A stretch of DNA of 64,000 bases from contig LOER01000034.1 in NCBI GenBank assembly GCA_001515945.1, positions 124,001 through 188,000 of the forward strand, written 5' to 3'. This document shows, piece by piece, positions 1 through 26,380 of the stretch. The DNA comes from Desulfitibacter sp. BRH_c19. GTDB taxonomy: Bacteria; Bacillota; DSM-16504; Desulfitibacterales; Desulfitibacteraceae. Each line of letters begins with the position of its first letter. Position 1 is the stretch's first letter. The notes under the pieces were generated by a model. The model was not told where the DNA came from, searched no databases, and saw only the letters and a program-made list of their open reading frames with translations. The position numbers and the translations under genes were made by a program.

Positions 1-569
1 TGTATAACTTTAAATACCTCCAGTTTACCAATGGGATCAACCTGAGAAGTAGGTTCATCTAAAACCATAATTTTAGGTTTTAGTATGAGGGATGCGGCAA
101 TAGCTACTCTCTGTTTTTGGCCACCCGATAGATCACTAGGGGGCTTGTCTAAAAAACCCCTATCCAAATTTACTTCGTTTAAAGTCCACTCTAGCCTATC
201 CTTTATTTCTTGTATCGAGAAACCTGCATTCTCTGCACCAAAGACTATCTCTTCTTCTACAGTTCCCCTAATGAACTGGGCATCAGGGTCCTGAAATACC
301 ATACCAACTTTCCTGGCACATTCAGCAATGGGCATGTCAAAGGTATCTATTTCACCGTCTATCATCACTTTACCTTTCATAGATCCATTAAATCTATGTG
401 GTATTAGACCATTCAGGCATCGGCAGAAAGTACTTTTACCTGCACCATTTTGACCCATTATACCTATGAACTCACCTTTTTTAATTTTCAATGAAATATC
501 TTTAAGCACCCACTTCTCAGTATCTTTGTACTGCCAGGATAAATTGTCAATATCAATTATATACTCCAC
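1..569 (-). CDS. ECF transporter ATPase (EcfA' type), cut by left edge
   Basis: ATP-binding subunit of an energy-coupling-factor vitamin/metabolite importer; pairs with the upstream ATPase and the T protein at the membrane. About 189 residues are in the window: Walker A GQNGAGKS at 39-46, Q-loop VFQDP at 91-95, signature LSGGQKQR at 147-154, Walker B IMVLDEPT at 167-174; the C-terminal third lies outside. Start is a GTG at 569 preceded by a G-rich Shine-Dalgarno (run of seven G), overlapping the end of the preceding gene by 13 bases, so the two are translationally coupled. This copy has the canonical signature, unlike its partner. Family assignment is firm; substrate is set by the S component at 3568-4197. 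Confidence 0.9.
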   Translation of the reverse strand, partial: MEYIIDIDNLSWQYKDTEKWVLKDISLKIKKGEFIGIMGQNGAGKSTFCRCLNGLIPHRFNGSMKGKVMIDGEIDTFDMPIAECARKVGMVFQDPDAQFIRGTVEEEIVFGAENAGFSIQEIKDRLEWTLNEVNLDRGFLDKPPSDLSGGQKQRVAIAASLILKPKIMVLDEPTSQVDPIGKLEVFKVI

Positions 570-1411
570 TTGCCGCCCCCCCTTTTCTTGTGAATCTTTT
601 TAATTTCAGCAAATAATTCCGAAACGGTAAGTATGTCTGATTTTATACCTGATTCACCCATTTTTAAAACTAGCTCAGTAATTTGAGGAGGTGCAACGAA
701 AGCTTCTTTTAATTTATCAACTTGAGTAAAAACGTGTCCCGATGGCCCATCCAATAATATCTTCCCACGGCTCATTACTACAGTTCTTTTTGCAAATTCT
801 GTTGAAAATCTCATCTCGTGAGTAATAAATATTATTGTTTTTCCTTCTTCTTTGTTTAGTTTCTCAAAAAGTTTCATAAACTGATAAGCCATTTTATAGT
901 CTTGACCAGTAGTAGGTTCATCCACTATCAATACCTTTGGTTGTAAAGCCAGTATTGCAGCTATAGCTACTCTCTGTTTTTCACCCATGGTTAAAAAGAA
1001 AGGATACTCATCAATTTTATCTAGCAACCCTACTGTTTCCAAAACTTCTTCAACTGTTTTAGCTATCTGATCCTTTGGCACTTTTAATAGTTTCAAACCA
1101 AAGGATACTTCGTCTCTTACACTTCTGCAAAACAGTTGCAAACTTGGATTTTGATATACATAACCAACAGTTCTTGCAAGAGTACCTAGTGGTTGTTCTT
1201 TTACACTTACTCCACCTATCAACACGTCTCCCTCTGTAGGTTTAAGCAGTCCGTTAAAATGCTTTACCAGAGTGGTTTTTCCAGAACCATTTTGTCCTAC
1301 AATAGATACTATTTCTCCCTCATAGATATCCAAATCAACCCCATAAATTGCCTTAGTGCCATCTGGATACTTATAGTGAACATCTTTAACACTTATAAAA
1401 GGCTGAGACAT
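557..1411 (-). CDS. ECF transporter ATPase (EcfA type) with altered signature motif
   Basis: Second ATPase of the ECF importer. 284 residues: Walker A GQNGSGKT at 39-46, Q-loop VYQNP near 86-90, Walker B VLIVDEPT at 160-167, H-loop FITHE near 196-200. The ABC signature reads LTMGEKQR at 140-147 instead of LSGGQ. ABC heterodimers often keep one canonical and one degenerate signature, and the downstream partner is canonical, so an asymmetric ATPase pair is likely. The C-terminal tail of about 60 residues is typical of ECF ATPases. ATG at 1411 follows GAAGGGGG. It lies between the T subunit and the second ATPase in one operon. Confidence 0.9.
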   Translation of the reverse strand: MSQPFISVKDVHYKYPDGTKAIYGVDLDIYEGEIVSIVGQNGSGKTTLVKHFNGLLKPTEGDVLIGGVSVKEQPLGTLARTVGYVYQNPSLQLFCRSVRDEVSFGLKLLKVPKDQIAKTVEEVLETVGLLDKIDEYPFFLTMGEKQRVAIAAILALQPKVLIVDEPTTGQDYKMAYQFMKLFEKLNKEEGKTIIFITHEMRFSTEFAKRTVVMSRGKILLDGPSGHVFTQVDKLKEAFVAPPQITELVLKMGESGIKSDILTVSELFAEIKKIHKKRGGGKWSI

Positions 1412-1448: not shown

Positions 1449-2369
1449 TTAAAAAAACCTTTGAAACAATGATGGCCAGAAAGCAGGGTCAGCAGGAATC
1501 CATTTTATAATTGGACCAATTATTGGTAGAAATCTTGCAATTAAAACTGCCAGAAGGAACAATACTACAAATATTATAAATGCCTTATCATGAAATTTAA
1601 GGATTTTATCATGTCCGATATATTCAGTTCTGTTATAATCCTTTGATTTAAACGTTGTCACATATCCTCTTGAATCACAAGCATCAGACATCTCATCTGC
1701 TTTTTTGAGTTCAATCATTATTAATGGCACCATAACAGCAGCATAATATTTGGCTTTTCTTAACATCCCCATGCTATCTAAATCTAATCCTCGAGCTTTT
1801 TGTGCTTCAATTATTTGCATTGCATCGTAGTAGAAGGTAAAGAAACAACGTAATGCAGTAGCTACTATAAATCTAAAAAAATATGGAAAGCGTAGACTCT
1901 TTAATGCAATGTTTATATCTCTTTCATCAATGATAGATAAAACAAATATTACACCAAAAATGGCTGACATCCATCTAACCCACATTGTTACAGTTGCTAT
2001 AAAGTTTTCATAATAATACGTAAAGCCGAATTGAAAAATAACATACTCGTAAGGTGGCTTTATCCATACTGAAGGGAAAAAAGCAAAGCTTAAAAACAAG
2101 AAGAACGTTAAAATAAACAAAAAAGGTGTAAACTTTAACAAGTAAGCTTTTGGTACATTAGCTACCCTATAGCAGATTAAAACAGTAGCAAGAAAAATTA
2201 AGTTCAGAAAAGGGTTGACAATAAGGAAAGGAATATTGAAAACTATAACGATCATTATCCTTGCCAACGGATGTAATACCGAAAACGGTGTCTCCTTGGG
2301 CGTGTAGCCAAAAATTGTTTTTCTATACTCTATTTTTGATCCTGGTGTTGCCAATGTGGCTGTTTCCAC
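1449..2369 (-). CDS. ECF transporter transmembrane protein (EcfT/CbiQ family)
   Basis: Membrane coupling subunit that links the two ATPases to the substrate-binding S component. 306 residues, with a hydrophobic cluster at about 30-125 (closely spaced membrane helices), a cytoplasmic coupling region at about 150-235 containing the family's alanine/arginine motifs (AQKARGLDLDS and SDACDSRGY), and a last membrane helix near 262-285. Starts with GTG at 2369 after GGAGTGGAGG. The order T, A, A' downstream of the S component makes this a self-contained (group I-like) ECF system rather than a shared housekeeping module; that reading is inference from gene order. Confidence 0.88.
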   Translation of the reverse strand: METATLATPGSKIEYRKTIFGYTPKETPFSVLHPLARIMIVIVFNIPFLIVNPFLNLIFLATVLICYRVANVPKAYLLKFTPFLFILTFFLFLSFAFFPSVWIKPPYEYVIFQFGFTYYYENFIATVTMWVRWMSAIFGVIFVLSIIDERDINIALKSLRFPYFFRFIVATALRCFFTFYYDAMQIIEAQKARGLDLDSMGMLRKAKYYAAVMVPLIMIELKKADEMSDACDSRGYVTTFKSKDYNRTEYIGHDKILKFHDKAFIIFVVLFLLAVLIARFLPIIGPIIKWIPADPAFWPSLFQRFF

Positions 2370-2409: not shown

Positions 2410-3285
2410 TTATTGTTTATAAGAAAGACTTTTTCTGTATTGCTTGATAAATTCAACGCCATATGGGTCTATACCATTCAAAAAATCCATAGTCGAAGTC
2501 ATCTGGCTTAAATGTGGGGTTGATGGATTAACCATTGCCACATTTAACCCCCAGGAAGCTCCAGAAACAAAGTACGCTAAGTCAATTAGTCCCGGGTTTG
2601 GCATCATATATCCTGCATTACTTATACCGAGTAGTGCTGGTACTCCCAGCTCTTCATGAAATGCTTTAATTGTTTCTAGAGTAACCTGCATACTATTTGG
2701 GACTACCCCAATAGGTAAACACACAGCGTCTATAGCTAAATCTTCACGAGGTATACCATGTGCTTCTGCGGCATCTACTATACGTTTTGCAACAAACACT
2801 CTATCTTTTACAGATTCAGGTATTCCCTTTTCATAAACTAAAGCCGTTCCAACAGCTGCACCATACTTAGCTATTATTGGCAACATCTTTTTTAGATTAT
2901 CTTTTTCTCCATTTACTATGTTACACATGGCCTTATATGGATAAACTGCTAAGCCTGCTTCTACCACTTTAGTATCCCGGGCGTCAATTGCAATACAGCA
3001 GCCTGTTTTTTCCACAAGTAACTCTATTACTCTTGGCAGCAACTTTAGCTGGTCTAGTTTAGGTTGCATAAGCTGAACATTAACAACATTTATTCCCATT
3101 TCCATGCCATCCTCAGCAAGTTTTAATAAACTGGCCAGACAGCCATCCTGCAGTTCTGCAAGTACTTCAGGTTTTTCTATACAATATCCCATCTGATCAT
3201 TGATACACAAGATAGGTTTTCCTATTCCAAACTCAATTGTTCCTTTTGCATATGAAAGCTTTCCACGAAGAAAATTCTGTACCAT
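2410..3285 (-). CDS. Methyltetrahydrofolate:corrinoid-type methyltransferase (pterin-binding family)
   Basis: 291-residue TIM-barrel protein of the dihydropteroate synthase/MeTr (AcsE, MtgA-like) family, which moves methyl groups between a corrinoid protein and tetrahydrofolate. Visible family features are the early IND segment near 28-30, the IDARDTK strand near 99-105, CNIVNGE near 120-126 (the pterin-pocket Asn), the AIDAVCLPIG strand near 184-193, and LGISNAGYMMP near 218-228. Placed between the ECF S/47-residue genes and EcfT, in the same operon as two UroD-type methyltransferases and a corrinoid protein, it is the obvious last step: methyl-corrinoid to methyl-THF, feeding the Wood-Ljungdahl methyl branch. 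ATG at 3285 follows GGGAGG. The substrate corrinoid partner is inferred. Confidence 0.85.
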   Translation of the reverse strand: MVQNFLRGKLSYAKGTIEFGIGKPILCINDQMGYCIEKPEVLAELQDGCLASLLKLAEDGMEMGINVVNVQLMQPKLDQLKLLPRVIELLVEKTGCCIAIDARDTKVVEAGLAVYPYKAMCNIVNGEKDNLKKMLPIIAKYGAAVGTALVYEKGIPESVKDRVFVAKRIVDAAEAHGIPREDLAIDAVCLPIGVVPNSMQVTLETIKAFHEELGVPALLGISNAGYMMPNPGLIDLAYFVSGASWGLNVAMVNPSTPHLSQMTSTMDFLNGIDPYGVEFIKQYRKSLSYKQ

Positions 3286-3345: not shown

Positions 3346-3384
3346 GATAGGTTGATCAGTTTAGATGGAACTGATCAACCTATC
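3346..3384 (-). terminator. Perfect 16-bp hairpin between small membrane gene and MeTr gene
   Basis: Left arm 3346-3361 (GATAGGTTGATCAGTT) and right arm 3369-3384 are exact reverse complements with a 7-base loop. It follows the stop codon of the 47-residue gene (3400) and precedes the methyltransferase start (3285). No clean U-run follows on the minus strand, so it may be an mRNA-stabilising or partial-termination hairpin rather than a full terminator. Confidence 0.6.
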
Positions 3385-3399: not shown

Positions 3400-3543
3400 C
3401 TATTTACTTAAATTTGGAATTACCACCAATAAAACATACGTTACTAAGCCAGTAGCTGCCAAAGTAAACACAACATTGTAAATCATAATACCTTTGGTCC
3501 AACTATCATCAGCATTCTTAACTTCTTTTACATCTTCTACCAT
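3400..3543 (-). CDS. 47-residue single-span membrane protein linked to ECF genes
   Basis: Short gene: ATG at 3543, TAG at 3400-3402, preceded by a perfect GGAGGTG Shine-Dalgarno eight bases upstream. The N-terminus is charged (VEDVKEVKNADDSW), followed by one hydrophobic stretch from about residue 18 to 43 and an NLSK tail, so a single transmembrane helix. It sits 24 bases after the S-component stop and before the MeTr gene. I recognise no family. The position next to the S component suggests a small accessory subunit of the ECF importer, by analogy with small subunits such as CbiN of cobalt ECF systems; that role is inference. The strong RBS and tight spacing make it a real gene. Confidence 0.75.
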   Translation of the reverse strand: MVEDVKEVKNADDSWTKGIMIYNVVFTLAATGLVTYVLLVVIPNLSK

Positions 3544-3567
3544 GTGGTTGCACCTCCTATATTATAG

Positions 3568-4375: not shown

Positions 4376-5251
4376 TTACACTTTAAATAGTTTTTGTAGG
4401 TAAAACTTATGTGGTCCAAAGTTCCCCCCAAAATTCATTGCTCCAATTTGTATAACACCTGGTACTCTAACTGCAGCTTCTATCCCCTGTTTAATTGCTA
4501 TAGCCACTAAGTCTTCGCTGACGCCAAAGAATAATATATTTAGAATTGAACCAACACCTTCTGGTACCTTTGTTTCATCAACTCTATTTCTTAATTCAGG
4601 GCAATACTGATGAAGCTTATAAATCTGCTCAAGACCAAATCCCATAGGAGACACTCCATCAATTCCCTCAAATGCATCTTTCGCTGCTTTAATGGCTATT
4701 ACAGCTGAAACCTCATTTTCTGCATAGCAAACGAAATGGCCATCTACCCCGCTGGTTGAAATGGATACCTCTGTTTCATATTTAAAAAATCCTGTAGTCG
4801 TAGGTACAATACATATATCTCTTCCACTTTCATTCCTAAAAGAATTTACTCCTTGCCAATTCTCTTCTAGGAGACTATTAATTCTAAATTTTTCGACATT
4901 CTCTAAGCCCGATAACATACAATCAAATATTGTAATAGTAGGTATCAATGTAGCAAGGTGATATCTTAAAGCTAATTCTTCAAGAAACTGATCTCTCATA
5001 TGAGGGGGCATAGTCATTGCTATAATAACACCAGGTCTATTATCAGGAGTTTCTTGAGGTAAAGCATTTCTCTCAATGCCACCATTAATTTTTGAGCCCA
5101 ACTCACTTGAACCAGCAGCTCCTGTAAACTGTTGAGCAGCATCCATTGCAATATCTGATGAAACAGCTGTAATAACCAAACGTACCACTTCTAACTTCCA
5201 AGACTCTGCATAAGTATCTTCAATATAAACATTATTTAATAGCATAGACAC
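4376..5251 (-). CDS. Ftr-like protein (formylmethanofuran:H4MPT formyltransferase homologue)
   Basis: 291 residues that align along their whole length with archaeal Ftr as I recall it: N-terminal YIEDTYAESWKLEVVRLVIT, the QETPDNRPGVII segment near 66-77, the central FDCML and TSGVDGHF segments, PEGVGSILNI near 227-236, and the C-terminal GIEAAVRVPGVIQIGAMNFGG with a final KLF. Ftr transfers formyl groups to tetrahydromethanopterin in methanogens and in methylotrophic Proteobacteria (FhcD). No other methanofuran/H4MPT gene is in this window, so the substrate here may differ. GTG at 5251 with GGAGG seven bases upstream is preferred over the ATG two codons later. Neighbours are a zinc dehydrogenase and an amidohydrolase; FwdA/FhcA, the usual partner, is also amidohydrolase-fold, but the one here is of the TrzN/SsnA type. 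Confidence 0.8.
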   Translation of the reverse strand: MSMLLNNVYIEDTYAESWKLEVVRLVITAVSSDIAMDAAQQFTGAAGSSELGSKINGGIERNALPQETPDNRPGVIIAMTMPPHMRDQFLEELALRYHLATLIPTITIFDCMLSGLENVEKFRINSLLEENWQGVNSFRNESGRDICIVPTTTGFFKYETEVSISTSGVDGHFVCYAENEVSAVIAIKAAKDAFEGIDGVSPMGFGLEQIYKLHQYCPELRNRVDETKVPEGVGSILNILFFGVSEDLVAIAIKQGIEAAVRVPGVIQIGAMNFGGNFGPHKFYLQKLFKV

Positions 5252-5291
5252 CTCGATACCTCCAATTTGCTTTACTTAAATTAATTCAAGA

Positions 5292-6308
5292 TTAGCATTC
5301 ATTTTTAATTACAATTTTCATTCCCTGTTGAGAATGTGCTGCTTCAAATGCCTGTTTAATGTCTGTTAAATAAAATGAATGAGTAATAAGTGGTTTAACA
5401 TCAATCTGATTTAAAAACATAAGTTTTAGAGCATCTCTATAATTTGCTAAAGTTGAATCATAACTGCCTATTAGCCTTAACTCCTTATAGTGGACGAGGT
5501 CTAAATCTAATTGAATTTTATCTTTCATTACTGCAGCGAAATATAACACCTGTCCTTTTCTTGCTGAAATAATTAATGCATCTTCTAAAACCTTTTCATT
5601 ACCTACAGCTGATATCACAATATCAGCACCATAGCCGCCAGTTATATGCTTTACTTCTTCAACCATATCCTGGTTTTCAGCATTTATTATAGAATCAAAA
5701 CCTAGACCTTTTGCTACCTCTAGGCGTTCCTTGGTTATTCCTATTATTGTAGTTTTGGCACCACGACTTCGTAAAATCTGTGCATGTAAAAGTCCAATTG
5801 GCCCATCACCTATTACTACTGCATTACAGCCTAATGGTATGTTTAATTGGCTAGTGCCATATATGCAGCAAGATAGTGGTTCAGTTAAAGCCGCCTCTTC
5901 AAATGAGACACCATTGGGAATCTTCACAAGATTTTGAAAAGGATAAACACTATACTCTTTAAATCCCCCAGAAGTATACCCAGCATTCAAACATGCATTG
6001 AAGTGACCCTTATGACAATTAATACATCTACCGCAAACAAGCCTTCCATCCGGTACAACGTGGTCTCCAATTTTAAAACCCTGTACTTCTGTTCCTAATT
6101 TATCTACAACACCAGATAATTCATGACCCATTTGAAATGGATACTGTATAGTCCACCCTTTTGGGCTATTGCCTTTATAAGCCTCTAGGTCTGTTCCACA
6201 TATACCAGCTGCTTTCACTTTTATCCTTACCTCAAAGGGTCCAGGCTCAGGTTGCTCTATTTCAATAATCTGAAATTTCAGAGGTTTAATTAATACAGCT
6301 GCCTTCAT
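5292..6308 (-). CDS. Zinc-dependent medium-chain alcohol/polyol dehydrogenase
   Basis: 338-residue MDR enzyme of the threonine/sorbitol dehydrogenase type; oxidises a secondary alcohol with NAD(P). Visible are the catalytic-zinc Cys in GICGTD near 36-41 and the GHE pair near 61-63, the structural-zinc lobe CGRCINCHKGHFNAC near 92-106, and the nucleotide-binding VIGDGPIGLLHAQ near 165-177. ATG at 6308 follows AAAGGAGG and overlaps the amidohydrolase stop by 4 bases, so the genes are translationally coupled. A second MDR enzyme lies in the same operon at 12516-13544; both have the LDLDLVHYKEL/ISIDPNLIHYKEL segment and are probably paralogues acting on related polyols. Substrate not determinable from sequence. 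Confidence 0.88.
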   Translation of the reverse strand: MKAAVLIKPLKFQIIEIEQPEPGPFEVRIKVKAAGICGTDLEAYKGNSPKGWTIQYPFQMGHELSGVVDKLGTEVQGFKIGDHVVPDGRLVCGRCINCHKGHFNACLNAGYTSGGFKEYSVYPFQNLVKIPNGVSFEEAALTEPLSCCIYGTSQLNIPLGCNAVVIGDGPIGLLHAQILRSRGAKTTIIGITKERLEVAKGLGFDSIINAENQDMVEEVKHITGGYGADIVISAVGNEKVLEDALIISARKGQVLYFAAVMKDKIQLDLDLVHYKELRLIGSYDSTLANYRDALKLMFLNQIDVKPLITHSFYLTDIKQAFEAAHSQQGMKIVIKNEC

Positions 6309-7726
6309 TCTTTGCCCTCCTTTATAGATGTAAGGTAATATGAGGGTACACTTAACCCCGCTTCTTTAAAACGCCCTAATGCATAGGCTTCAGCTTCATA
6401 AAGTGCCTCTTCTTCATTTACAGTTAGCATGATTTTATTGTCCATGACTATATTTCCGTTTACTATAACCGTATCTACATTTCCAGATTGAGCACAATAT
6501 ACTAGGTTATTAATAATATTGTTTATAGGTCTCATGTTAGCTGATTTAAGATCAACCAGAATTATATCAGCTAGCTTACCGGATTCTAAAGTTCCTAATT
6601 GATCTCCTAACCCAAGGGATTTTGCTCCTCCTATAGTAGCCATTTCTAAAGCTTGATAGCTTGAAACAATCATAGAGTCTAGATTTGCAACCCGCTGAAG
6701 CATAACTGCTATTCTCATGGTTTGAAAAATATCTGTATTATCATTAACTGCACAACTGTCTGTACCTAATGATACATTTATGCCCTCTTTTAGAATTTTT
6801 GCTATAGGAGCTATTCCAGATCCTATTTTCATATTGCATTCAGGATTATGAACTACCGATGTTCCTGTCTCTTTTAGTATCTTTATGTCTTCATCTGTTA
6901 CCCAGATACAATGAGCCGCTAGAACATCATTTCCTAAAACTCCTAGATCCTTTAAGAATTCGGTTGGAGTTTTGTTATAATTCTTTTTAAAGCTATTATA
7001 CTCATATTCTGTTTCCGCTAAATGAATGTGAATTGGGATATGCTTCATGTCAGCTAGTTCACGTACTTTAGTTAACATACCAGGGGTACATGAATTGGGA
7101 CAGGCTAAACCATACCAAAATGAAACCCTATTATCCTTAGAACCCTTACATCGTTCGTTAAGCTCATCAGCTAAATTAAACAATATGTCATTACTTAATA
7201 TGGCCGCTGAAGGTGTCCATTTATGATTATCTGTAATAGTCAGTGTATGTGCCGCCCTAATCCCAATGTCTTCATACACTTTAATAGTATCAACAGGTGT
7301 TGCCCATTCCATATTAACCACGCTCGTAATACCCGATTTTATATTTGTAATGCATCCATGTAAAGTGGCAAAGTTTTGGAGTTCATTTCTGCCATTTAGA
7401 TAGTCCTGTACAGCCACCCTAATTCTCGGAAAACTCACTTGATCAATCCAATCAATTAATGGCAAATCATCTCTAGCACCTTTCAGGAAATCCTGTAAGA
7501 AATGACAATGAGCGTTTATCAGCCCAGGCATTACCGCCTTATTTCTTGCATTAATAATCTTTCTACCATTGTACTTATCTATTAAAGTATCTGTTGTGCC
7601 AACCTCAAGGATTCTGCCTTTATTTACAGCTACTGCACCGTTTTCAATAACTTGATTTGGTCCAGTAACTGGAACGACTAAACCATTCATTATTAACATA
7701 TCTATATTCATTTTAGTTTCACTCAT
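6305..7726 (-). CDS. Metal-dependent amidohydrolase (TrzN/AtzA/SsnA-type deaminase family)
   Basis: Cytosolic amidohydrolase of the cytosine deaminase-like superfamily that hydrolyses C-N (or C-halide) bonds on heterocycles or amidines. Family marks: LINAHCHFLQDFLKG (metal HxH), HIHLAETEYEY, AAHCIWVTDEDI, HNPECNMKIGSG, and SLGTDSCAVNDN with the catalytic Asp, then the C-terminal composite beta domain (LESGKLADIILVDL). I start at ATG 7726 (473 residues), which has GAGGTG seven bases upstream; an in-frame ATG at 7741 overlaps that RBS. The start overlaps the end of the Fe-S gene (ATGAGTGA). In the demethylation/polyol operon it would handle an amine or amidine group of the substrate; inference only. 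Confidence 0.85.
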   Translation of the reverse strand: MSETKMNIDMLIMNGLVVPVTGPNQVIENGAVAVNKGRILEVGTTDTLIDKYNGRKIINARNKAVMPGLINAHCHFLQDFLKGARDDLPLIDWIDQVSFPRIRVAVQDYLNGRNELQNFATLHGCITNIKSGITSVVNMEWATPVDTIKVYEDIGIRAAHTLTITDNHKWTPSAAILSNDILFNLADELNERCKGSKDNRVSFWYGLACPNSCTPGMLTKVRELADMKHIPIHIHLAETEYEYNSFKKNYNKTPTEFLKDLGVLGNDVLAAHCIWVTDEDIKILKETGTSVVHNPECNMKIGSGIAPIAKILKEGINVSLGTDSCAVNDNTDIFQTMRIAVMLQRVANLDSMIVSSYQALEMATIGGAKSLGLGDQLGTLESGKLADIILVDLKSANMRPINNIINNLVYCAQSGNVDTVIVNGNIVMDNKIMLTVNEEEALYEAEAYALGRFKEAGLSVPSYYLTSIKEGKE

Positions 7727-8849
7727 CCGACAACACCTCATTAATTAGTTCTGTAAGAAATTTAACTTTAACATCAAGTTGATTAAAACCTACTGCTCTT
7801 TTAAGGTTTGAATAACAAGCTGGACATGAGGTTACTACTTCTTGAGCCTTTACTTCTTCTACTTCTTTTGCCCTCTCAGAGGCTACCTGAATAGATAATT
7901 CATTCATTCTAGGAATTTCTGCCAATGGAGCTCCACAGCATCTAGATTTTTCATGATGTAGCTTCATTTCTACAAAATTAATATCTGGTATCACTTTTAG
8001 TAAATTTCTAGGTTCTTCGTAAATACCTAGGTGTCTACCAAGTACACAAGGGTCGTGCCAAGTAACAGTTTTATTATGAGAAGACAATTTTCCATTAACC
8101 AAAGGTATCAAAAATTCAGAAATGTCTTTAATATCATAATTGTGGTTTAAACTTAACTCATTAGGATAAAGATGCTTTAAAGCATTTAAACATCCTGGGC
8201 ATGCAGTAACTATTATGTCGGCTTCGTACTTCTCTATCTTACTTAGCGTTTCTTCTGCTGCCATTTTCATATCACTAATATGACCGCTTTCATATAGCGG
8301 ATAGCCACAACAGGCATCTTCATCTAAAACTTGGTAATTAATCTGAAGTTTAGCAAATACTGATTTTGTGGCTCTAATTATTTTTGGAGCGTTATAATTT
8401 GCATTACATCCAGGATAATAAAGAACTTTTATTTTACCTGACATATTCTTTTCAGCATAACTGTGTCTTCTTCTATTACCAAATGGATGACTATCTTTTA
8501 TTACATTGTTTGCCATCTCTCTATGTGCAGGATCTGACAAATCGTTTTCGACTATTTCTTTTCGTATAGCATGGAAAATTTTGTCTAATGGAATATTAAT
8601 TGGACACGAAATTTTACAATGACCGCAAAGTGTACACATAAGCAAATGGTCAACCATTTTTTCAGATATTTTTATTTTTTTCTCGGTTAAAAGCTTTGCT
8701 AGTTTTACTCTTCCACGGGGATATTGGGTTTCCCATCCATCTGTATACTTATAAACTGGACAGACCGAATCAACATCCTTCCAACCCCACACTCTACAAA
8801 ATCCACATCTAGTACACTTATTTATTTCATCAAGATATTTTTCTAGCAT
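7719..8849 (-). CDS. Iron-sulfur oxidoreductase subunit (GlcF/LldE/HdrD-like, two CCG domains)
   Basis: 376-residue electron-transfer partner of the FAD oxidase upstream. Two N-terminal [4Fe-4S] motifs: CTRCGFCRVWGWKDVDSVCP near 12-31 (the fourth Cys is widely spaced) and CTLCGHCKISCP near 72-83. Two cysteine-rich CCG domains follow, with DEDACCGYPLYESG near 178-191 and SRCCGAPLAEIP near 306-317, as in heterodisulfide reductase and glycolate/lactate dehydrogenase subunits. ATG at 8849 follows AAGGAGG, 14 bases after the FAD gene. Together they probably oxidise a 2-hydroxy acid and pass electrons to a membrane or ferredoxin pool. Confidence 0.88.
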   Translation of the reverse strand: MLEKYLDEINKCTRCGFCRVWGWKDVDSVCPVYKYTDGWETQYPRGRVKLAKLLTEKKIKISEKMVDHLLMCTLCGHCKISCPINIPLDKIFHAIRKEIVENDLSDPAHREMANNVIKDSHPFGNRRRHSYAEKNMSGKIKVLYYPGCNANYNAPKIIRATKSVFAKLQINYQVLDEDACCGYPLYESGHISDMKMAAEETLSKIEKYEADIIVTACPGCLNALKHLYPNELSLNHNYDIKDISEFLIPLVNGKLSSHNKTVTWHDPCVLGRHLGIYEEPRNLLKVIPDINFVEMKLHHEKSRCCGAPLAEIPRMNELSIQVASERAKEVEEVKAQEVVTSCPACYSNLKRAVGFNQLDVKVKFLTELINEVLSDE

Positions 8850-8863
8850 CCCTGGACCTCCTT

Positions 8864-10207
8864 TTAAAAACCTATTACACCTGGATTCATTATTGCATTG
8901 GGATCTAAAGCCTTCTTAATAGTTTTTGACATGCTCCAATATCCAGTTTCTTTCATTTCTTCTTTCAAAAAGGGTGCCCATTGTCTTCCTTTTGAATATG
9001 GTGCTCCACCCAAAATCAAACTTTTGCTCATCATTTCCTTCATAGCAGAATAGATTTTATTTAGTTCTTCTTTATCAGATGGATTATGAAATAAAAGTGC
9101 TACAACCTCTGCTCCAGTCGGCCCAGGAAACACCTGCTGCACATATTTTGTCACTCCATGCTTATCAATGAGTTCTCGCATTTCATTAATACCGAGTTCA
9201 ATCTTTGAGTAAGGTAAAAAGAAGTTTACAACACCTGCAATACCATCTACAAATTCTAAACCAGTATTATACCAGCGATTCTCCCAAAACTTTAGTGGTT
9301 CATCGGAACCTAGATGTTTTACATCCGGATATTTATTGATGATTTTTCTAACTTCTTCTTTTTTAGCTTCCACTTCTTTTTCGAAGCCTTCAATGTTAAT
9401 ATCAAATACTATTTCATTTGAATTGATAAAAGGTGCCGAAATAAAACATGTAAGATTGTGAATTGCAATTTCTCTAAAAATAGATACAGCATCTTTCAAG
9501 CTCCTTACTGAAAATCTTTCAAGATATATCTCTTCAGGATAAGGATACATTCTCAAGGTTGCCTCTGTAACTATGCCATAAACACCTTCAGCCCCAATAA
9601 AAAGTCCGGTTAAATCTGGACCTAAAGCATATCGAAAAAAGACTTCAGAATGTGGATTAGCTGCTGTTGCAGTATTAACAACGTCTCCCATTGGAAGCAC
9701 AGCTTTAACTCCTAAAACTTGATCTCCCTGGCTTACATATTTTACATTTCCCCAGCCTACTCCTGGTCGCGAGAGATGGGCACCAACCGTTCCAGCCAAT
9801 GCGCCTGAAGGAGCAATGCCAATTTTCCAGCCTTTTTTTTCTAAGGCAGCCATTAACTTGCCAAAGGTGATTCCAGCCTCAACCTTGACTATGCTGTTAT
9901 CCTCATCTATATTAAGTATTCGATCCATACGAAGAGTTTCTATGACTATTCCACCTTCTACTGCCAGACAACCACCCTCTTGAGCCGAACCTCCGCCCCT
10001 AGGAGAAATAGGGATTTTATATTCATTTGCAAGCTTAACGATATTTGATATTTCTTCAGTAGTACCGGGTCTTACAACTGCTAGAGGTACAACTGAAGGT
10101 GAAACAGAAAAATCATTTGTATAAGTATGAAGAATGAATTCTTCAGTTGTTACATTATTATCTCCAACAATTGCTTTCAGTTTATCTAGAAGCATATTAA
10201 TATCCAC
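8864..10207 (-). CDS. FAD-linked 2-hydroxyacid oxidase/dehydrogenase (GlcD/LldD2-like)
   Basis: 447-residue flavoprotein with an N-terminal FAD_binding_4 (PCMH-type) domain: VRPGTTEEISNIVKLANEYK near 45-64, ISPRGGGSAQEGG near 67-79, and PSGALAGTVGAHLSRPGVG near 133-151. It ends in the FAD-oxidase C-terminal signature LDPNAIMNPGVIGF. Homologues oxidise glycolate, lactate or other 2-hydroxy acids. Starts at GTG 10207 after AGGGAGAG. Paired with the Fe-S subunit downstream; a third (GlcE-like) subunit is absent. In this operon it could consume a glycolate-type product of the aldolase step (inference). Confidence 0.88.
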   Translation of the reverse strand: MDINMLLDKLKAIVGDNNVTTEEFILHTYTNDFSVSPSVVPLAVVRPGTTEEISNIVKLANEYKIPISPRGGGSAQEGGCLAVEGGIVIETLRMDRILNIDEDNSIVKVEAGITFGKLMAALEKKGWKIGIAPSGALAGTVGAHLSRPGVGWGNVKYVSQGDQVLGVKAVLPMGDVVNTATAANPHSEVFFRYALGPDLTGLFIGAEGVYGIVTEATLRMYPYPEEIYLERFSVRSLKDAVSIFREIAIHNLTCFISAPFINSNEIVFDINIEGFEKEVEAKKEEVRKIINKYPDVKHLGSDEPLKFWENRWYNTGLEFVDGIAGVVNFFLPYSKIELGINEMRELIDKHGVTKYVQQVFPGPTGAEVVALLFHNPSDKEELNKIYSAMKEMMSKSLILGGAPYSKGRQWAPFLKEEMKETGYWSMSKTIKKALDPNAIMNPGVIGF

Positions 10208-10241
10208 TTATTCACACTCTCCCTTATGTTTAAGCCATAGA

Positions 10242-10991
10242 TTATGCAGTGAACATTATTTTACGCATATTGCTTACAAGTTCTCCTGGATTATCTGACT
10301 GCCACACTCTTCGGCCTATTGCTACCCCTGAAGCTCCAGCCTGCATAAGTTCCTTGACCATATTTATAGTTCCATCAGCGCCATTTTGGTTAGCTCCTCC
10401 GGCCACAACGATTGGTAAGCCTACTGAGTCAACTATTTGCCTAAAAGCTTCTGGATCGCCACAATAGTTTGTCTTTATTATATCTGCGCCAAGTTCCATT
10501 CCCAATCTTGATACATGGGCTATTGCTTCTGCATCAAAAAACTTATCACTTGAAGGCATCATTTCAGCTAATACTGGCATCTGATATTCATAACTCTTTT
10601 CAATCAATTCGCTCATCCATCTCATAATACTGCATTCGCCACTTCTTCCAAAGAAAATAGAAACTGCAACAGCATCTGCATCTAATCGAAGAGCTGTTTT
10701 AAGTGTGGCAGCTGGGGTTTCTTGAAACGCTTCCTCACTAGGTCCTGCTACGATACTAACCCTTAAAACAATACCAACTTCTGGCTTTACTATATGTCCA
10801 ACTTGGTTTAGGAAACCTGGAGTAACGAGCAAAGCATTTGCCCCTCCATCTAGAACCTGCCCCACAATTTCCTTCGGTTTATTAATTCCTTTAATTGGAC
10901 CCAACCAAGGAGCATGATCTAGAGGAACCATTAGACAACGTTTTTCAGGACCTCTAAATAATCTTTCCATTCTTCGCTTCTTCCCACTCAT
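10242..10991 (-). CDS. Class I aldolase of the DhnA/DeoC-FbaB family
   Basis: 249-residue Schiff-base TIM-barrel aldolase related to archaeal-type fructose-bisphosphate aldolase, LsrF and ADH synthase. Visible are VPLDHAPWLGPIKGI near the N-terminus, the TPGF segment, the catalytic-lysine strand GADIIKTNYCGDPEAF, and the phosphate-binding end PIVVAGGAN and GASGVAIGRRVWQS. ATG at 10991 with AAGGGAG eight bases upstream is preferred over a GTG at 11000. Directly downstream of a sugar kinase and a polyol dehydrogenase, it is the natural C-C cleavage step for a phosphorylated ketose-like intermediate; the exact substrate is open. Confidence 0.82.
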   Translation of the reverse strand: MSGKKRRMERLFRGPEKRCLMVPLDHAPWLGPIKGINKPKEIVGQVLDGGANALLVTPGFLNQVGHIVKPEVGIVLRVSIVAGPSEEAFQETPAATLKTALRLDADAVAVSIFFGRSGECSIMRWMSELIEKSYEYQMPVLAEMMPSSDKFFDAEAIAHVSRLGMELGADIIKTNYCGDPEAFRQIVDSVGLPIVVAGGANQNGADGTINMVKELMQAGASGVAIGRRVWQSDNPGELVSNMRKIMFTA

Positions 10992-11046
10992 GTGAAGCAC
11001 TCCCTTCTTTTTTGAAAACTCATTAATATATTTATTTCTAAAAAAT

Positions 11047-12519
11047 TTAGTTTAAACTAGATGCAAATTTGGAAAACTTGAGATAATTACTATAGACCTT
11101 TTCATAAGCTAATTTATTTTGTTTACTATGATTTACTATTTCTGGTTTATTAAAAGTAGACATCAGGTTGTTCTCAAAATTACCTAATCCTAGATTTTCT
11201 TTGGATAAAGCAAACAATACTCTTGTAACTGTTTCCTGCCCAGCGTACACAAATACGTCCTTTTGGCATACATCAGCAATAATCTGCAACAAACCAGGAG
11301 TTCTAATGCCACCAGCTGCTAGTGCTAGTTCTTTTACAATAACACCAGATTCTTCGTAAAGATCCAGCAAGTGTTTTAGACTATAAGCTATCCCCTCTAA
11401 GACTGCCCTAGCTAAATGTCTTTTGTCATGGGACAACTTTAAACCATAAAACCCTCCTCGTATATCATCACTCCAATAGGGACTTCTTTCTCCTGTTAGA
11501 TATGGGATAAAACATACACCATCTGATCCTGGTTCAATTTCCAAAGCTTCATGAATCCACTCATTAAATTCTATTTTATTTTCTAGACCTGACAATATAT
11601 TTTCATAAAACCACATTATTGCTGCGCCAGTAGTTGAGGATACTCCACCAAACAAATGATAATTTTCCATATTAAGTTTGTATAAAGCGTCATTAGGAAC
11701 ACTTATAATCTTACTTGATTCAATAGTAGTAAATATCATTGAAGAACTGCCTAGAGAACATACAACTCTACCTTGCTTTGGTGGTGCACCGCCAATTAAA
11801 GCCGCCATATCACCCATACCTATTACAACCTTTATACTTTCACTAAACCCTAGCTCATCCGCTATATGCTTATGTATTGTTCCGCCATCATGGCTTGCTG
11901 GTTGTATTGTTGGCATTGCTTTAGGTTTAAGCCCAACTGCAGCTATCCTATCAATAGCCCATGTATTCTTCTCCCAATCATATAGTCCTGAACCATAAGC
12001 TTCAGTTCTATCTGTATAATATTGTCCAGTCATCTTCCAGCGTAAAAAGTCCTTAGGCCAAATTATTTTACTAATTCTTTCAGTAATATCGTTTCTGTTC
12101 TTATATATCCATAAAAGTTTCGATATTGTATAGGTGCTATTTAACTGATATAACGGAATTTGAAACATACTCTGAAGCTCTTCTGTTTCTTTTATAGCCC
12201 TTCTATCAAGCCATAGTATGGATGGGCATATAACATTGTCTTTTCTGTCCAGGAGAACGGCAGAATGCATTTGCCCAGTAAAAGCTATTGATTGTATCTG
12301 ATCTAAACTTATTCCTGATTTTCTTAAAGACGTCATTGCCTTTTTAAAAGCTTCCCACCATACTTCTGGATCTATTTCAGCCCAACCAGTCTTACAAGTT
12401 TCATAGGAATATTTCTCATTTACAATACTTATTATCTGGCCATCTATTGAATATAAGACAGCTTTTAAAGATGAAGTACCGACATCTATTCCTAAAATGC
12501 TGGGGGCTATATTGCTCAC
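11047..12519 (-). CDS. FGGY-family carbohydrate kinase (xylulokinase-like)
   Basis: 490-residue sugar/polyol kinase with the actin-like fold. N-terminal phosphate-1 motif LGIDVGTSSLKAVLYS near 8-23, the substrate-loop TGQMHSAVLLD near 81-91, the second nucleotide motif GMGDMAALIGGAPPKQGRVV near 240-259, and the FGGY-type adenosine motif LALAAGGIRTPGLLQIIADV near 401-420. Starts at GTG 12519, overlapping the preceding dehydrogenase stop by four bases (GTGA). Sequence resembles xylulokinase more than glycerol or gluconate kinase, but FGGY specificity cannot be read by eye. Acts between the dehydrogenase and the aldolase in a likely polyol, ketose, ketose-phosphate, cleavage route. Confidence 0.88.
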   Translation of the reverse strand: MSNIAPSILGIDVGTSSLKAVLYSIDGQIISIVNEKYSYETCKTGWAEIDPEVWWEAFKKAMTSLRKSGISLDQIQSIAFTGQMHSAVLLDRKDNVICPSILWLDRRAIKETEELQSMFQIPLYQLNSTYTISKLLWIYKNRNDITERISKIIWPKDFLRWKMTGQYYTDRTEAYGSGLYDWEKNTWAIDRIAAVGLKPKAMPTIQPASHDGGTIHKHIADELGFSESIKVVIGMGDMAALIGGAPPKQGRVVCSLGSSSMIFTTIESSKIISVPNDALYKLNMENYHLFGGVSSTTGAAIMWFYENILSGLENKIEFNEWIHEALEIEPGSDGVCFIPYLTGERSPYWSDDIRGGFYGLKLSHDKRHLARAVLEGIAYSLKHLLDLYEESGVIVKELALAAGGIRTPGLLQIIADVCQKDVFVYAGQETVTRVLFALSKENLGLGNFENNLMSTFNKPEIVNHSKQNKLAYEKVYSNYLKFSKFASSLN

Positions 12520-13544
12520 CCTTCTTCCCCTCCTACTTCAAACATCACCTTCAGCCCTTGACATTTAGCTACTATATCTAAACCTTCTTGAAGCTTATTT
12601 AAAGGCAAGAGATGAGAGATTAAAGGTTCCACTTTTATAGTTCCGTCTTCAATCATTTTAAGTGCTTTATAAAAATCTGTAGATGTACTATCAGCAGAAC
12701 CCAATATATTTAACTCCTTGTAATGAATTAAATTAGGATCGATACTTATTGGATCTACAGGATAAATCCCTGCAAAAATATTCAAACGTCCTCCAATTGC
12801 TAAAGCTTTAGCAGTTTCGGAAACTAATGGTGATGAAGGTACTGCAACAACAGCTGCATCTGCTCCCTTACCATCCGTTAATTCCTCTATAGCTGCCACC
12901 ATATCGTGCTGGGAACTGTTAACAATAGCATCTGCGCCCAGTTTCTTAGCTAAGTCAAGACGTTCTTGGATTAAATCTACTGCAATAACCCGAGCCCCAT
13001 ATGCTTTAGCTACTTGTGCATGAAGCTGACCGATGGGTCCAACACCCACTACTACTTCTGTTTCTCCAGGTTTTAATCTTAGTACTGTTTGACCTCTAAA
13101 AACTGTAGCCAAAGGTTCAGTAAAAGCAGCAGCTTTTAAACTAACACCAGGCTTAATGGGATGAATGTTTTTTCTTGGAAAAGCAGCATATTCTGCATAA
13201 CCTCCAGGCAGAAATGTAGGGTTAAGGCACTTATTTTCTCTTTCATTCCTACAGTTTTTACAAACACCACATTTGACTATGAAATCACCAACAACAGGAG
13301 TTCCTATCTCTAAGTCCTTTACATCTGAACCAACTTCAGTAACTATACCGGCGATTTCGTGACCGAGAATGCGTGGTAATGGAACATTCTTTTTGCCCAA
13401 GTAAACCCTAAGATCCCAAGGACAAATTCCTGAATAAGCGATTTTTACAAGAACATCTTTAGGGCCTATCTGATATACAGGCTTTTCACGCATTTCAATT
13501 ACTCCTGGTTCAACACACCACATAGAATTCATGATCTTAGCCAT
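12516..13544 (-). CDS. Zinc-dependent medium-chain dehydrogenase (second paralogue)
   Basis: MDR enzyme, 342 residues from ATG 13544. GICPWDLRVY near the catalytic zinc (the usual CGTD is CPWD here), GHE in RILGHEIAG, structural-zinc cysteines CGVCKNCRNERENKC, Rossmann VVGVGPIGQLHAQV. GGAGG lies at the right distance before ATG 13544; an in-frame TTG 15 bases earlier is embedded in the RBS region. Located between the GntR regulator and the FGGY kinase. Likely oxidises a polyol or methylated polyol to a keto compound; the paralogue at 5292-6308 may take the reverse or the epimer step. These roles are inference. Confidence 0.87.
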   Translation of the reverse strand: MAKIMNSMWCVEPGVIEMREKPVYQIGPKDVLVKIAYSGICPWDLRVYLGKKNVPLPRILGHEIAGIVTEVGSDVKDLEIGTPVVGDFIVKCGVCKNCRNERENKCLNPTFLPGGYAEYAAFPRKNIHPIKPGVSLKAAAFTEPLATVFRGQTVLRLKPGETEVVVGVGPIGQLHAQVAKAYGARVIAVDLIQERLDLAKKLGADAIVNSSQHDMVAAIEELTDGKGADAAVVAVPSSPLVSETAKALAIGGRLNIFAGIYPVDPISIDPNLIHYKELNILGSADSTSTDFYKALKMIEDGTIKVEPLISHLLPLNKLQEGLDIVAKCQGLKVMFEVGGEEG

Positions 13545-13578
13545 ATATTGCCTCCTCAATCTTTATTTGTGCGGTAAT

Positions 13579-14337
13579 TTAGTCCATACTTACATACTGG
13601 TTAGTGGTTGACCGTACTGAATACTTAAAACGGTCTGCCCTATTATATACATAGCTATATTCTATTGGACAACCATCTCCATCATAAGAAATTCCTTCAA
13701 CAAGTAAAAGTGGATTGCCCTGAAGTATTTTCAAAACCCTTGCTTGATGGCTATTTGCTGCAATAGCTTGAACTGTATCTTCTGTCTCCTTAATAATAAT
13801 TCCCTTTTGAAACAATAGTGCCCATAAAGATACTTCCTTTTCTAGCTCCCCTGGATGCAAATATATTTCCTGAGGAAGGTTTAAATGCGAAGTACTATAA
13901 GCTACGGGTTCATCGTCAATAGTCCTTAAACGTTCAATAACCCATATTTTCTTGCCTTCTTCAATGCCTAAAGCTTCAGCGATTTGTCCTACAGCAGACT
14001 CAAACCTTAGTTCCAAAAGTTTTGACCCGGGCTTACGTCCACTTAAACTAACTTCCTCGGAAAAGCTTCTACGGCTGTTAGTGCCACGGCTAAGCTTAGG
14101 TTGTGAAACAAAAGTACCTACACCCTGACGGCGTTGTAAGTAACCTTCCTGTACCATTTCTTGAATAGCAGCCCGCACAGTTATTCTACTAACCTGAAAT
14201 TTTTCGCATAGTTCCTTCTCAGTCATGATAATCTCGCCAGGCTTAAGTTCTCCATGATTTATTTGTTTTAAAAGTATCTGTTTTACTTGATAATACAGTG
14301 GTTCTGGAGCATTTCGATCGATTTTAAACACACTCAT
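13579..14337 (-). CDS. GntR-family regulator, HutC/UTRA type
   Basis: 252-residue repressor. N-terminal winged helix-turn-helix at about 5-75 (LYYQVKQILLKQINHGELKP, VSRITVRAAIQEMVQEGYL, RRQGVGTFV) and a C-terminal UTRA ligand domain from about 95 (WVIERLRTIDDEPVAYSTSHL through PLLLVEGISYDGDGCPIEYS). Lies inside the cluster between the UroD gene and the MDR gene. Two identical 10-bp palindromes (TGTTATAACA) lie upstream of the two UroD genes at 15459-15468 and 17321-17330, at almost the same distance from each start, and are the best candidate operators. The ligand is probably the pathway substrate or a phosphorylated intermediate. Confidence 0.88.
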   Translation of the reverse strand: MSVFKIDRNAPEPLYYQVKQILLKQINHGELKPGEIIMTEKELCEKFQVSRITVRAAIQEMVQEGYLQRRQGVGTFVSQPKLSRGTNSRRSFSEEVSLSGRKPGSKLLELRFESAVGQIAEALGIEEGKKIWVIERLRTIDDEPVAYSTSHLNLPQEIYLHPGELEKEVSLWALLFQKGIIIKETEDTVQAIAANSHQARVLKILQGNPLLLVEGISYDGDGCPIEYSYVYNRADRFKYSVRSTTNQYVSMD

Positions 14338-14367
14338 CTTTTTTACACTACATCCTTTTTATTAAAT

Positions 14368-14419
14368 TTTATCCAAAATACTATATGGGTTAAGACCCTC
14401 ATTTCTATAAGTGGGCACT
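14368..14419. repeat. Dispersed repeat, short copy
   Basis: The sequence TTTATCCAAAATA followed by CTATATGGGTTAAGACCC and, near its end, TATAAGTGGGCA is closely repeated at 41672-41770, where about 45 extra bases separate the two conserved parts. This copy covers the last codons and the stop of the UroD-type gene ending at 14405. Confidence 0.6.
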
Positions 14420-15403
14420 ATACTTTTCCATATTCCAATTCTTTTTGGCTTCACCCATTGCAATAATATTTTCGGTATTTAAATAATTTGCTAGAGAGTT
14501 GCTGCTAGAGAGAATATAATTGCCTCCTTTGCCTATCACAGTCATTAATGATCTAACATCTTTTTTAACCCTATCTTTATTTCCCGTGCATAAGAGGTTT
14601 AAATCTACATTACCCACAAGCGTTATTTTTTGCCCTAAAGTTTTTTTCAAAGCGTAAATATCCATTACATCAGGTTGAATAGGATGAATCGCATTCATTC
14701 CTAAACCCAACAAGTCATCAATGACTGGCAAAATATTGCCGTCACTATGATAGATCCAAGGTTTTTCGATTTTATCAGTAATTCTCTTAAAATATGGCAT
14801 GATTAACTCTCTAAACTGCTTGGGTGAAATAAAGGTACCACTATTATAGGCTATGTCTTCTCCAACCCATATGAAATCTATTTCTGGTAGTGAACTATAG
14901 ATACTTGTAATCTTCATATAGTATTGTGTATATCTTTCCAACATGTCCTTGATAAGATCTAAGTCATCGTACAGCTTATAGCAAAAGTTTTCGAAGCCAA
15001 GATCAATCATTACAGGATCAAGGCATAATAAGTGAGCAACAAATAGTGCCAGTCCAGAATCTCCTATTGCCTCCTTTGCTTCCTTTACCTGCCTGATTAT
15101 GGCTTCTTCATCTATTTCATTAGGCATATTAAAGAACTTATCTAAGTCCCCCCTTTCTTTTATTAGTGGCTGAAAACCTAGAACTCCATTCTTTTCTAAT
15201 AATTTATTTCCAAACCTATCCCAGTGAGCCATACCTACAGCATCCTGACCTACAAATTTTGCATACTCAACTCTTTCTGTCCAGCCCACATTTTTTACGT
15301 TAAACGTTTTTGCAATAAGTTCATCCCTGGTTTCTATCTCAATCCAAGGTATGGGGCCTTCTTTTCCAAGAAGGGCATTAAGAACTATATCTCTTGATTT
15401 CAC
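14405..15403 (-). CDS. UroD-family corrinoid methyltransferase (first copy)
   Basis: 332-residue uroporphyrinogen-decarboxylase-fold protein, the family of MtaA/MtbA and of many acetogen O-demethylase subunits. GTG at 15403 has AGGGGTG six bases upstream, and the resulting start KSRDIVLNALLGKE aligns with the paralogue's KPRERIMATLMGEE; the in-frame ATG at 15445 has no Shine-Dalgarno. The metal-site region reads WIYHSDGN instead of the HxC of MtaA/MtbA, so the zinc-thiolate for coenzyme M is absent. That argues for an activity other than thiol methylation, such as binding a methylated substrate and methylating the corrinoid. Downstream of the corrinoid protein gene; its 3' end is overlapped by a dispersed repeat. 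Confidence 0.83.
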   Translation of the reverse strand: MKSRDIVLNALLGKEGPIPWIEIETRDELIAKTFNVKNVGWTERVEYAKFVGQDAVGMAHWDRFGNKLLEKNGVLGFQPLIKERGDLDKFFNMPNEIDEEAIIRQVKEAKEAIGDSGLALFVAHLLCLDPVMIDLGFENFCYKLYDDLDLIKDMLERYTQYYMKITSIYSSLPEIDFIWVGEDIAYNSGTFISPKQFRELIMPYFKRITDKIEKPWIYHSDGNILPVIDDLLGLGMNAIHPIQPDVMDIYALKKTLGQKITLVGNVDLNLLCTGNKDRVKKDVRSLMTVIGKGGNYILSSSNSLANYLNTENIIAMGEAKKNWNMEKYSAHL

Positions 15404-15458
15404 TATTGACACCCCTGTGTAATAAGTTATCGGTTTTACTAACATTATTACATTATAT

Positions 15459-15468
15459 TGTTATAACA
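15459..15468. promoter_or_regulatory. Candidate GntR operator before first UroD gene
   Basis: Perfect palindrome TGTTATAACA in an AT-rich setting, 56 bases upstream of the GTG start at 15403. The same palindrome occurs 60 bases upstream of the second UroD gene (17321-17330). Spacing and identity suggest the HutC-type regulator encoded at 13579-14337 as binder; not proven. Confidence 0.45.
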
Positions 15469-15496
15469 TTTGAGCTGTTTGTAATAGTCAACGTTT

Positions 15497-16123
15497 CTAT
15501 AACCACTGCTTGAGTTGCCTGGCAGCTAAAGCAGCATGCCGAGAGTATGCGTCAGCTCCGATTTGAGCAGCGAAGCCTTCTGAAACAGCTGCTCCACCAA
15601 TTATAACCTTAAGATCTTCCCTTAGACCAGCACTCTTTAGTGCATCAATTACAACTTGCATTTCTACCATTGTAGTAGTAATTAATGATGACATTCCTAA
15701 AAAATTTGGTTTATACTCTCTTATAGCTTTCACAAAATCTTCCTCGTGAACATCCACGCCCAAATCTATAACTCTAAAACCACTAACATCCAAAATCATT
15801 TCTACCATATTCTTGCCAATATCATGCAAATCCCCTTTTACCGTTCCTAATACAATAGTAGCTTTTTTGGTTGATGGACCTTCTGTTAATCCTTTTGATG
15901 CAAGCTTCATAGCATCTTTCACGACATAGGAAGCCAGCAACATATCTGGTACAAAACATTCTCCCGATTCGAACTTATCTCCTACGATATTTATTCCTGG
16001 TATTAGTCCTTGATTAATTATGTCCAATCCTGAAGCTCCACCATTGAGAGATTTTTGAACTAATTCAAGGGTCTTACCCTTTTTCCCATTTGCAACAGAA
16101 TTTTGTATTTCTTCATAATACAT
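15497..16123 (-). CDS. Corrinoid (methylcobamide-binding) protein, MtaC/MtbC/MtmC-like
   Basis: 208-residue methyl carrier. An N-terminal helical cap (about 1-85) with GLDIINQGLIPGINIVGDKF precedes a B12-binding Rossmann domain with the base-off signature DLHDIGK at 98-104 (His100 is the cobalt ligand), then MSSLITTTM and a glycine-rich IIGGAAVSEGFA. It accepts a methyl group from a substrate-specific methyltransferase and hands it to an acceptor methyltransferase. It lies between the two UroD genes, so one is likely the donor enzyme. ATG at 16123 follows AGAGGGGAAG. No reductive activator (RamA/RACo type) is visible in the window, so reactivation must be encoded elsewhere. Confidence 0.92.
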   Translation of the reverse strand: MYYEEIQNSVANGKKGKTLELVQKSLNGGASGLDIINQGLIPGINIVGDKFESGECFVPDMLLASYVVKDAMKLASKGLTEGPSTKKATIVLGTVKGDLHDIGKNMVEMILDVSGFRVIDLGVDVHEEDFVKAIREYKPNFLGMSSLITTTMVEMQVVIDALKSAGLREDLKVIIGGAAVSEGFAAQIGADAYSRHAALAARQLKQWL

Positions 16124-16178
16124 GATTATCTTCCCCTCTATTCTTTGGAGTTTTAATAGTCACTTTGCTGAAATTTCC

Positions 16179-18348: not shown

Positions 18349-18515
18349 GACGTCGTAACACCTCTTCCTTATTCTTAGTACGCTCTTAAAAACTCTAGAA
18401 TAATGAAATTTGAAATTTAATAAATGAATTACAACTCAAAATTTTTTCAAGATTATAAGAAAATTCCTAAATACATTACTGGACAAATTTATCCTAATTA
18501 CCCTGATTAAGTAAT

Positions 18516-21145: not shown

Positions 21146-21320
21146 TTGGCAACAACCTCCTTTTAAAAAAGAAGAAGGATTAGTCTTTTGCTAAAAGACC
21201 CCCACTTTTCAACTAAAGACATATTATTGTAATTTGCTGCATTGTAGTATTGTAGTATTTGTTGGTTATGCCTAATTTTTCTATGCTTTATTACTGAGAT
21301 TATTTAGTTTTGTGAATCTT

Positions 21321-21356
21321 CTAAAAGGAAGAAGGGCCATGCCTTCTTCCTTTTAG
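21321..21356 (-). terminator. 15-bp hairpin between BMP lipoprotein and ABC genes
   Basis: Arms 21321-21335 (CTAAAAGGAAGAAGG) and 21342-21356 are exact complements with a 6-base loop, directly after the BMP gene stop (21369). Without a strong U-run, it probably limits read-through so that the binding protein is made in excess over the ATPase and permeases, or protects its mRNA 3' end. Confidence 0.65.
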
Positions 21357-21368
21357 AGTTATTTGAGA

Positions 21369-22364: not shown

Positions 22365-22565
22365 CAATTTTACTTCCTCCCATTTCAAAATAAAAACCTG
22401 GGTAGAACCCTCTCCTAACAGAACTATCTCATCATAAATGTTCATGATATGACTTCTTTCTTCTCTTCATCCCCCCTTACATAGTTTTTCTACTGGGGTC
22501 ATAGAGCATATGAAAGTGTATATGCGCTTCAATTACAAGGAAGTCTTGTAATTGTTAAACATTAA

Positions 22566-22579: not shown

Positions 22580-22630
22580 TTTTCAGGAAGATTGATTAAT
22601 GTCCTGATTTTAGAAATTCATAAAGTCATA

Positions 22631-26352: not shown

Positions 26353-26380
26353 CAAAACTTTAAACCCTTTGTTATCATAA

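Follow-up and report, generated by a model that had tools for sequence, protein, structure and literature searches.

Downstream of the gene for an ECF S component, the window (the whole 64,000-nucleotide stretch of Desulfitibacter sp. BRH_c19 DNA analyzed here) holds an open frame of only 47 residues, followed by a gene for a MeTr-type methyltransferase. This arrangement raises two questions: whether so short a frame is a gene at all, and if so, which of its neighbors the product serves. A preliminary description of this DNA took the product for a single-span membrane protein that could be either a new ECF accessory subunit or a membrane tether for the methyltransferase.

The ECF operon and its S component

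The genes around the frame lie on the minus strand and follow one another, in the direction of transcription, as FTR-like, S, small, MeTr, T, A, and A′ (Table 1, which also defines the locus and genome labels used below). Apart from the intervening MeTr gene discussed below, the order S-T-A-A′ with two ECF ATPases is common to the window, L007, L011, and L063.

Table 1. Features of the window and copies of the small gene at other loci
Feature	Position	Strand	Basis or remark
FTR-like gene	4376..5251	-	both FTR domains; far below NCBIfam cut-offs (window copy)
ECF S component, 209 aa	3568..4197	-	fold of model; weak MASE1 similarity
RBS GGAGGTG of small gene	3551..3557	-	sequence; purine-rich site 5′ of start in 7/7 copies
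Small gene, 47 aa, single-span, charged N-terminal head	3400..3543	-	ORF, 6 further loci, pN/pS
Hairpin, 16-bp stem, after small gene	3346..3384	-	-24.2 kcal/mol, z -7.9
MeTr-type methyltransferase gene	2410..3285	-	PF00809 E 1.1e-13; NF005719 E 1.5e-42
ECF T component (CbiQ family)	1449..2369	-	PF02361, E 2e-20
ECF ATPase A	557..1411	-	TIGR04521, E 3e-76
Second ECF ATPase A′	3..569	-	ORF open at window edge; judged from sequence and complete copies in L011, L007
Small gene, G002	L011 382-522		78% identical to window copy
Small gene, 'Candidatus Formimonas warabiya' DCMF	L007 8737-8865		48% identical to window copy
Small gene, MAG AS08sgBPME_225 (G078), first locus	L008 8635-8766
Small gene, MAG AS08sgBPME_225 (G078), second locus	L009 8612-8743
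Small gene, G133	L024 8348-8485
Small gene, G285	L063 57-191

By sequence, the S gene of the window matches no named S-component family in Pfam or NCBIfam; a weak MASE1 match is found (E 0.017 in Pfam), and no CbiM match appears in Pfam at E ≤ 0.1. Its structural model has the six membrane helices of the S-component fold. When the model was compared by VIA-align, the 16 best entries were all ECF S components, with Z scores of 10.4-14.8 and 147-171 residues aligned at an rmsd of 2.8-4.5. The S components of the riboflavin, folate, biotin, thiamin, and pantothenate systems are among them, and the next entry was the unrelated Lnt at Z 8.6. CbiM and NikM have no rows in this table, which is not evidence of absence, and Foldseek E-values for the model are weak on their own (0.17 and worse). 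The modeled fold thus marks the gene product as a vitamin-type ECF S component. Searches of PDB sequences with profiles of S and of the small protein gave nothing beyond noise.

Incidental to this assignment, three distant S homologues, which sit in S-T-A-A operons, match MASE1 in Pfam (E 4.5e-6, 1.2e-4, and 6.1e-5), all below the curated cut-off; such homologues lie at L026 7058-7669, L028 6905-7513, and L029 6837-7553. MASE1 is not mentioned in the main text of PMC11109136, which deals with S-component-like receptor folds.

A short frame under protein-level selection

The small frame runs on the minus strand from an ATG at 3543 to a stop codon at 3400-3402 and translates to MVEDVKEVKNADDSWTKGIMIYNVVFTLAATGLVTYVLLVVIPNLSK. 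The plus-strand heptamer CACCTCC reads as GGAGGTG seven bases 5′ of the ATG, so that both the frame and the ribosome-binding site of the preliminary description are present in the sequence. The charged head and the membrane helix given there are borne out as well: the head is MVEDVKEVKNADDSWTK, and hydropathy analysis gives one membrane-like stretch, with a top 19-residue Kyte-Doolittle mean of 2.50. The tight spacing reported for both flanks holds on the S side, where 24 nt separate the S stop from the frame, and fails on the MeTr side, where the gap is 114 nt and contains a strong hairpin.

A short, hydrophobic, A+T-rich frame could be an accident of composition, and Pfam and NCBIfam scans with the window protein returned no credible match. 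In 20,000 simulated gaps of 282 nt with the first-order composition of the real gap, however, an RBS together with a frame of at least 40 aa and a membrane-like stretch (mean ≥ 1.9) arose in only 12. Conservation tells against chance too. The small gene was found directly 3′ of an S gene at seven loci in six genomes, the window included, encoding 42-47 aa with 25-78% identity to the window copy among the relatives. Trp15 at the helix start and Tyr36 near the helix end are invariant, and all seven copies have room for one membrane helix.

Three independent close pairs were compared at the codon level. The pN/pS ratio is 0.22 for window/G002, 0.28 for the two AS08sgBPME_225 copies, and 0.38 for G133/G285. 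In each pair the substitutions also fall preferentially at codon position 3 (p 0.004, 0.006, and 0.010). From these ratios and this enrichment, the small gene is under purifying selection at the protein level; in other words, selection acts on the amino-acid sequence. More distant pairs have saturated synonymous sites, and their ratios of 0.34-1.19 are uninformative either way.

A chance frame is thus scarcely credible in view of the conservation, the codon-position pattern, the selection, and the simulation, and the frame is almost certainly a genuine gene. The same small gene stands beside homologous S components, where the preliminary description had suggested looking for it; its conservation there is the opposite of the outcome that the description had named as a refutation.

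Among candidates for family membership, a weak Pfam match of the window protein, to TMEM37, scores 17.4 bits against a cut-off of 31.7 and was rejected as noise from a hydrophobic helix, as were the Na/K-ATPase beta and DUF6341 matches of its relatives. Pfam and NCBIfam scans of three relatives gave no CbiN or NikN match.

Distribution, neighbors, and the hairpin

To gauge the range of the gene, 398 genomes sampled from the phylum were searched with one profile for S and another for the small protein. The former matches 10 of them, five at E < 1e-60 (G000, G002, G078, G133, and G285) and five at E 1e-16 to 1e-18. At E < 1e-12 the small-protein profile matches the same five genomes as the strong S matches, and the next match is at 2.8e-4. 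The match in G285 (E 1.3e-13) is an independent one because the model was built without the G285 sequence. The T protein of the window likewise has relatives in the same 5/398 genomes at 54-100% identity, and at 28-30% in four of the genomes with distant S. The ECF system is rare (5/398 genomes). G001, a complete genome from the same genus as the window, has neither S nor the small gene, and at five distant S loci, arranged as S-T-A-A or S-T-fused A, the S-T gap has no same-strand small frame of at least 30 aa.

When the threshold is relaxed to E ≤ 0.05, 47/398 genomes are matched by the small-protein profile, only 5 of them at E < 1e-12. About 20 of the other 42 are expected from the E-values, with more expected from any hydrophobic helix, and many of the matches fall inside long frames; a distant relative may be among them. 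A match in G003 from another search was discarded as noise, the locus (L003) having no ECF genes in 3.1 kb. Co-occurrence ties the small gene to one clade of ECF operons without telling S from T as its partner. In sum, this nutrient importer of a few anaerobes appears to have a small membrane protein in addition to its usual parts, which makes that protein a good candidate for a new type of small subunit.

Nine close S copies could be read past their 3′ side (in G285:C28 only the last 8 S codons are on the contig), and seven of them are followed by the small gene. One exception is an extra S copy in G285:C155 (L025 5111-5877), behind which come a different, unrelated frame and then the contig end. 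The other, in G078:C153 (L023 1501-2091), is shortened, carries an in-frame TGA, and is followed by a frame that looks dehydrogenase-like from its sequence. Both are in fragmented assemblies. S may be able to work without the small protein, or the two orphan copies may be spare, broken, or mis-assembled. An apparent frameshift is also present near the start of the S gene at L009.

Which gene comes next on the other side bears on the methyltransferase. Adjacency to MeTr, the one observation that would favor a membrane anchor for this enzyme, is confined to the window: among the genomes examined, no other has MeTr between the small gene and T. T is the next gene after the small gene in L007, L008, L011, and L063. 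The same holds for G133, with a transposase gene interrupting T; at L009 the sequence stops short of the following gene. Relatives of MeTr lie at a distance in DCMF (55%, about 4 kb downstream, behind an aldo-keto reductase gene) and in G285 (53%, about 12 kb downstream of the small gene). The best matches in G002 and G078 are at 23-27%, which is not a close relative, and no relative was found in G133 at E ≤ 1e-20. Since MeTr is elsewhere or absent in the relatives, the tether proposed in the preliminary description is disfavored, and we consider it highly improbable. As a separate observation, the transposase gene in G133 (L024 8558-10828) belongs to the Mutator family and splits T right after its first ~30 codons.

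A hairpin follows the small gene at all seven loci, with z from -2.2 to -7.9 and with unrelated sequences. It places the small gene on the S side of a boundary, apart from T-A-A′, which fits production together with S. The hairpin may have a regulatory role. Its constant presence would also suit a translated leader or attenuator, in which ribosomes on the small frame set the frequency with which RNA polymerase or ribosomes get past the hairpin to the genes downstream, and the peptide itself is irrelevant. Selection, however, acts on the amino-acid sequence (pN/pS 0.22-0.38), and the membrane helix is kept with its fixed Trp and Tyr. Moreover, the four distant S-T gaps that were folded have hairpins that differ in strength (z -1.2 to -2.1) but no small frame. 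We therefore regard a leader frame as improbable.

A candidate single-helix subunit and its known counterparts

That the small gene is functionally tied to the ECF transporter is very probable. We somewhat favor the reading that its product is, in the strict sense, an accessory subunit with a single span, serving an ECF transporter of the non-metal type. Of the accessory reading in the preliminary description, the genomic part holds, the gene being kept with S in six genomes and sharing its distribution; physical binding is a prediction from gene sequences.

A transient helper for S insertion, folding, or turnover, absent from the working transporter, would draw on the same genomic facts as a subunit, since its gene too would be expected to adjoin S ahead of the hairpin, and its synthesis to be coupled with that of S. 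Helpers of insertion and folding are usually common to several clients. Strong matches of the small gene, in contrast, occur only with one ECF clade. A helper is accordingly unlikely, although less so than the leader.

For an accessory subunit, the following course can be conceived. In one clade of dedicated ECF importers the gene order is S - small - (hairpin) - T - A - A′, and the small protein would be made together with S. It would insert with N-in/C-out topology, as suggested by the Lys-rich heads of divergent copies. There it could contribute a further helix, packed on S or where S and T meet, and this helix might stabilize substrate-free S or aid its docking on the module.

AlphaFold was run on two natural read-through fusions. 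In the S-small model the small helix has a pLDDT of ~40, with no homologues of the small part in the alignment; in the small-T model it has 60-71, with two such homologues. Because the alignments differ, the two models are not comparable, and neither provides an interface measure.

The substrate may be a compound handled by the genes around the operon. Because the operon sits in a conserved catabolic cluster, the importer probably carries a compound degraded there. Rfam gave no match on six loci, and hence no riboswitch hint at the substrate.

In the window the cluster spans 4376-17261 and includes an FGGY kinase, a DeoC/LacD aldolase, GlcD-like and CCG iron-sulfur proteins, an amidohydrolase, and Zn dehydrogenases. 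It is conserved in the window, L007, L008, L024, and L063, with parts in 'Ca. Formimonas warabiya' DCMF. The FTR-like protein, which has the domains of the formylmethanofuran:tetrahydromethanopterin formyltransferase family, is conserved at L007 6940-7809, L008 6965-7849, L024 18506-19432, and L063 9140-10072. A corrinoid protein and methyltransferases of the URO-D or MtmB type are found near the ECF cluster. Farther along the window, the stretch 17428-30027 holds a BMP-family ABC importer operon, with its substrate-binding protein at 21369-22445, and past the operon genes that look xanthine-dehydrogenase-like and aldehyde-ferredoxin-oxidoreductase-like from their sequences.

A bolder proposal, which we hold tentatively, is that the protein may be without precedent, as a subunit of one helix dedicated to a non-metal ECF transporter with a vitamin-type S. 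It would join S, T, and A as a component of a fourth kind and act as a clamp made of a helix, holding or toppling an S whose family resembles the MASE1 sensor domain. How an ECF S component topples, docks, and gets released is still being worked out. If the proposal is true, a one-helix partner of a vitamin-type S would be a minimal, deletable handle on the toppling and docking step. A further implication would be that ECF operons contain small subunits which have been missed, being below the usual gene size limits.

No description of a single-span ECF subunit was found in the literature searched, a scope that took in few subscription papers. A single-helix ECF partner is not mentioned in the available portions of PMC2667541, PMC7689651, PMC11109136, PMC9768040, PMC10903887, and PMC7755397. 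In the sources consulted, which were available in part, the small extra ECF subunits described so far are partners of metal systems only.

In size, in having one helix, and in acting on a large membrane complex, a subunit of this kind would resemble small proteins of E. coli. KdpF is a single-helix small subunit of a membrane complex in that bacterium. So are AcrZ and CydX (PMC7267776, PMC4325964). None of the three is part of an ECF transporter, and their sequence relation to the window protein was compared by family scans only.

Further counterparts are the extra components of ECF systems for metals. In nickel ECF transporters, NikL and NikK are alternative components of this sort (PMC2667541), present in addition to S, T, and A, as the window protein would be; they differ in belonging to nickel systems, and the window protein has no sequence match to them in Pfam or NCBIfam. 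CbiN and NikN, of the cobalt and nickel transporters CbiMNQO and NikMNQO, are likewise small hydrophobic extra proteins of dedicated ECF systems. Binding of CbiN is reported to be weak. CbiN is required for transport beside the S unit CbiM (PMC2667541, PMC7689651). The preliminary description had likened the window protein to a single-span CbiN, an analogy that does not stand as worded, since the accessible parts of the same two papers give CbiN and NikN two membrane helices each, those of CbiN being joined by an extracytoplasmic loop. CbiN and NikN pair with CbiM and NikM, whereas the window protein has a single helix and accompanies an S of vitamin-type fold without a CbiM match. Membership in the CbiN/NikN family was therefore rejected: there is one helix instead of two, no CbiM partner, and no match to a family model.

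CcmD offers a parallel from another transporter class. It is a small single-span member of the CcmABC ABC transporter complex with N-out/C-in topology, according to the available part of PMC10903887, as opposed to the N-in topology suggested here, and the window protein has no Pfam match to CcmD. What the two would have in common is small size, a single span, and membership in the complex of an ABC transporter. By analogy, if our inference holds, the small protein of the window would be a one-helix version of the CbiN/NikN idea, or would stand to its ECF transporter as CcmD stands to CcmABC.
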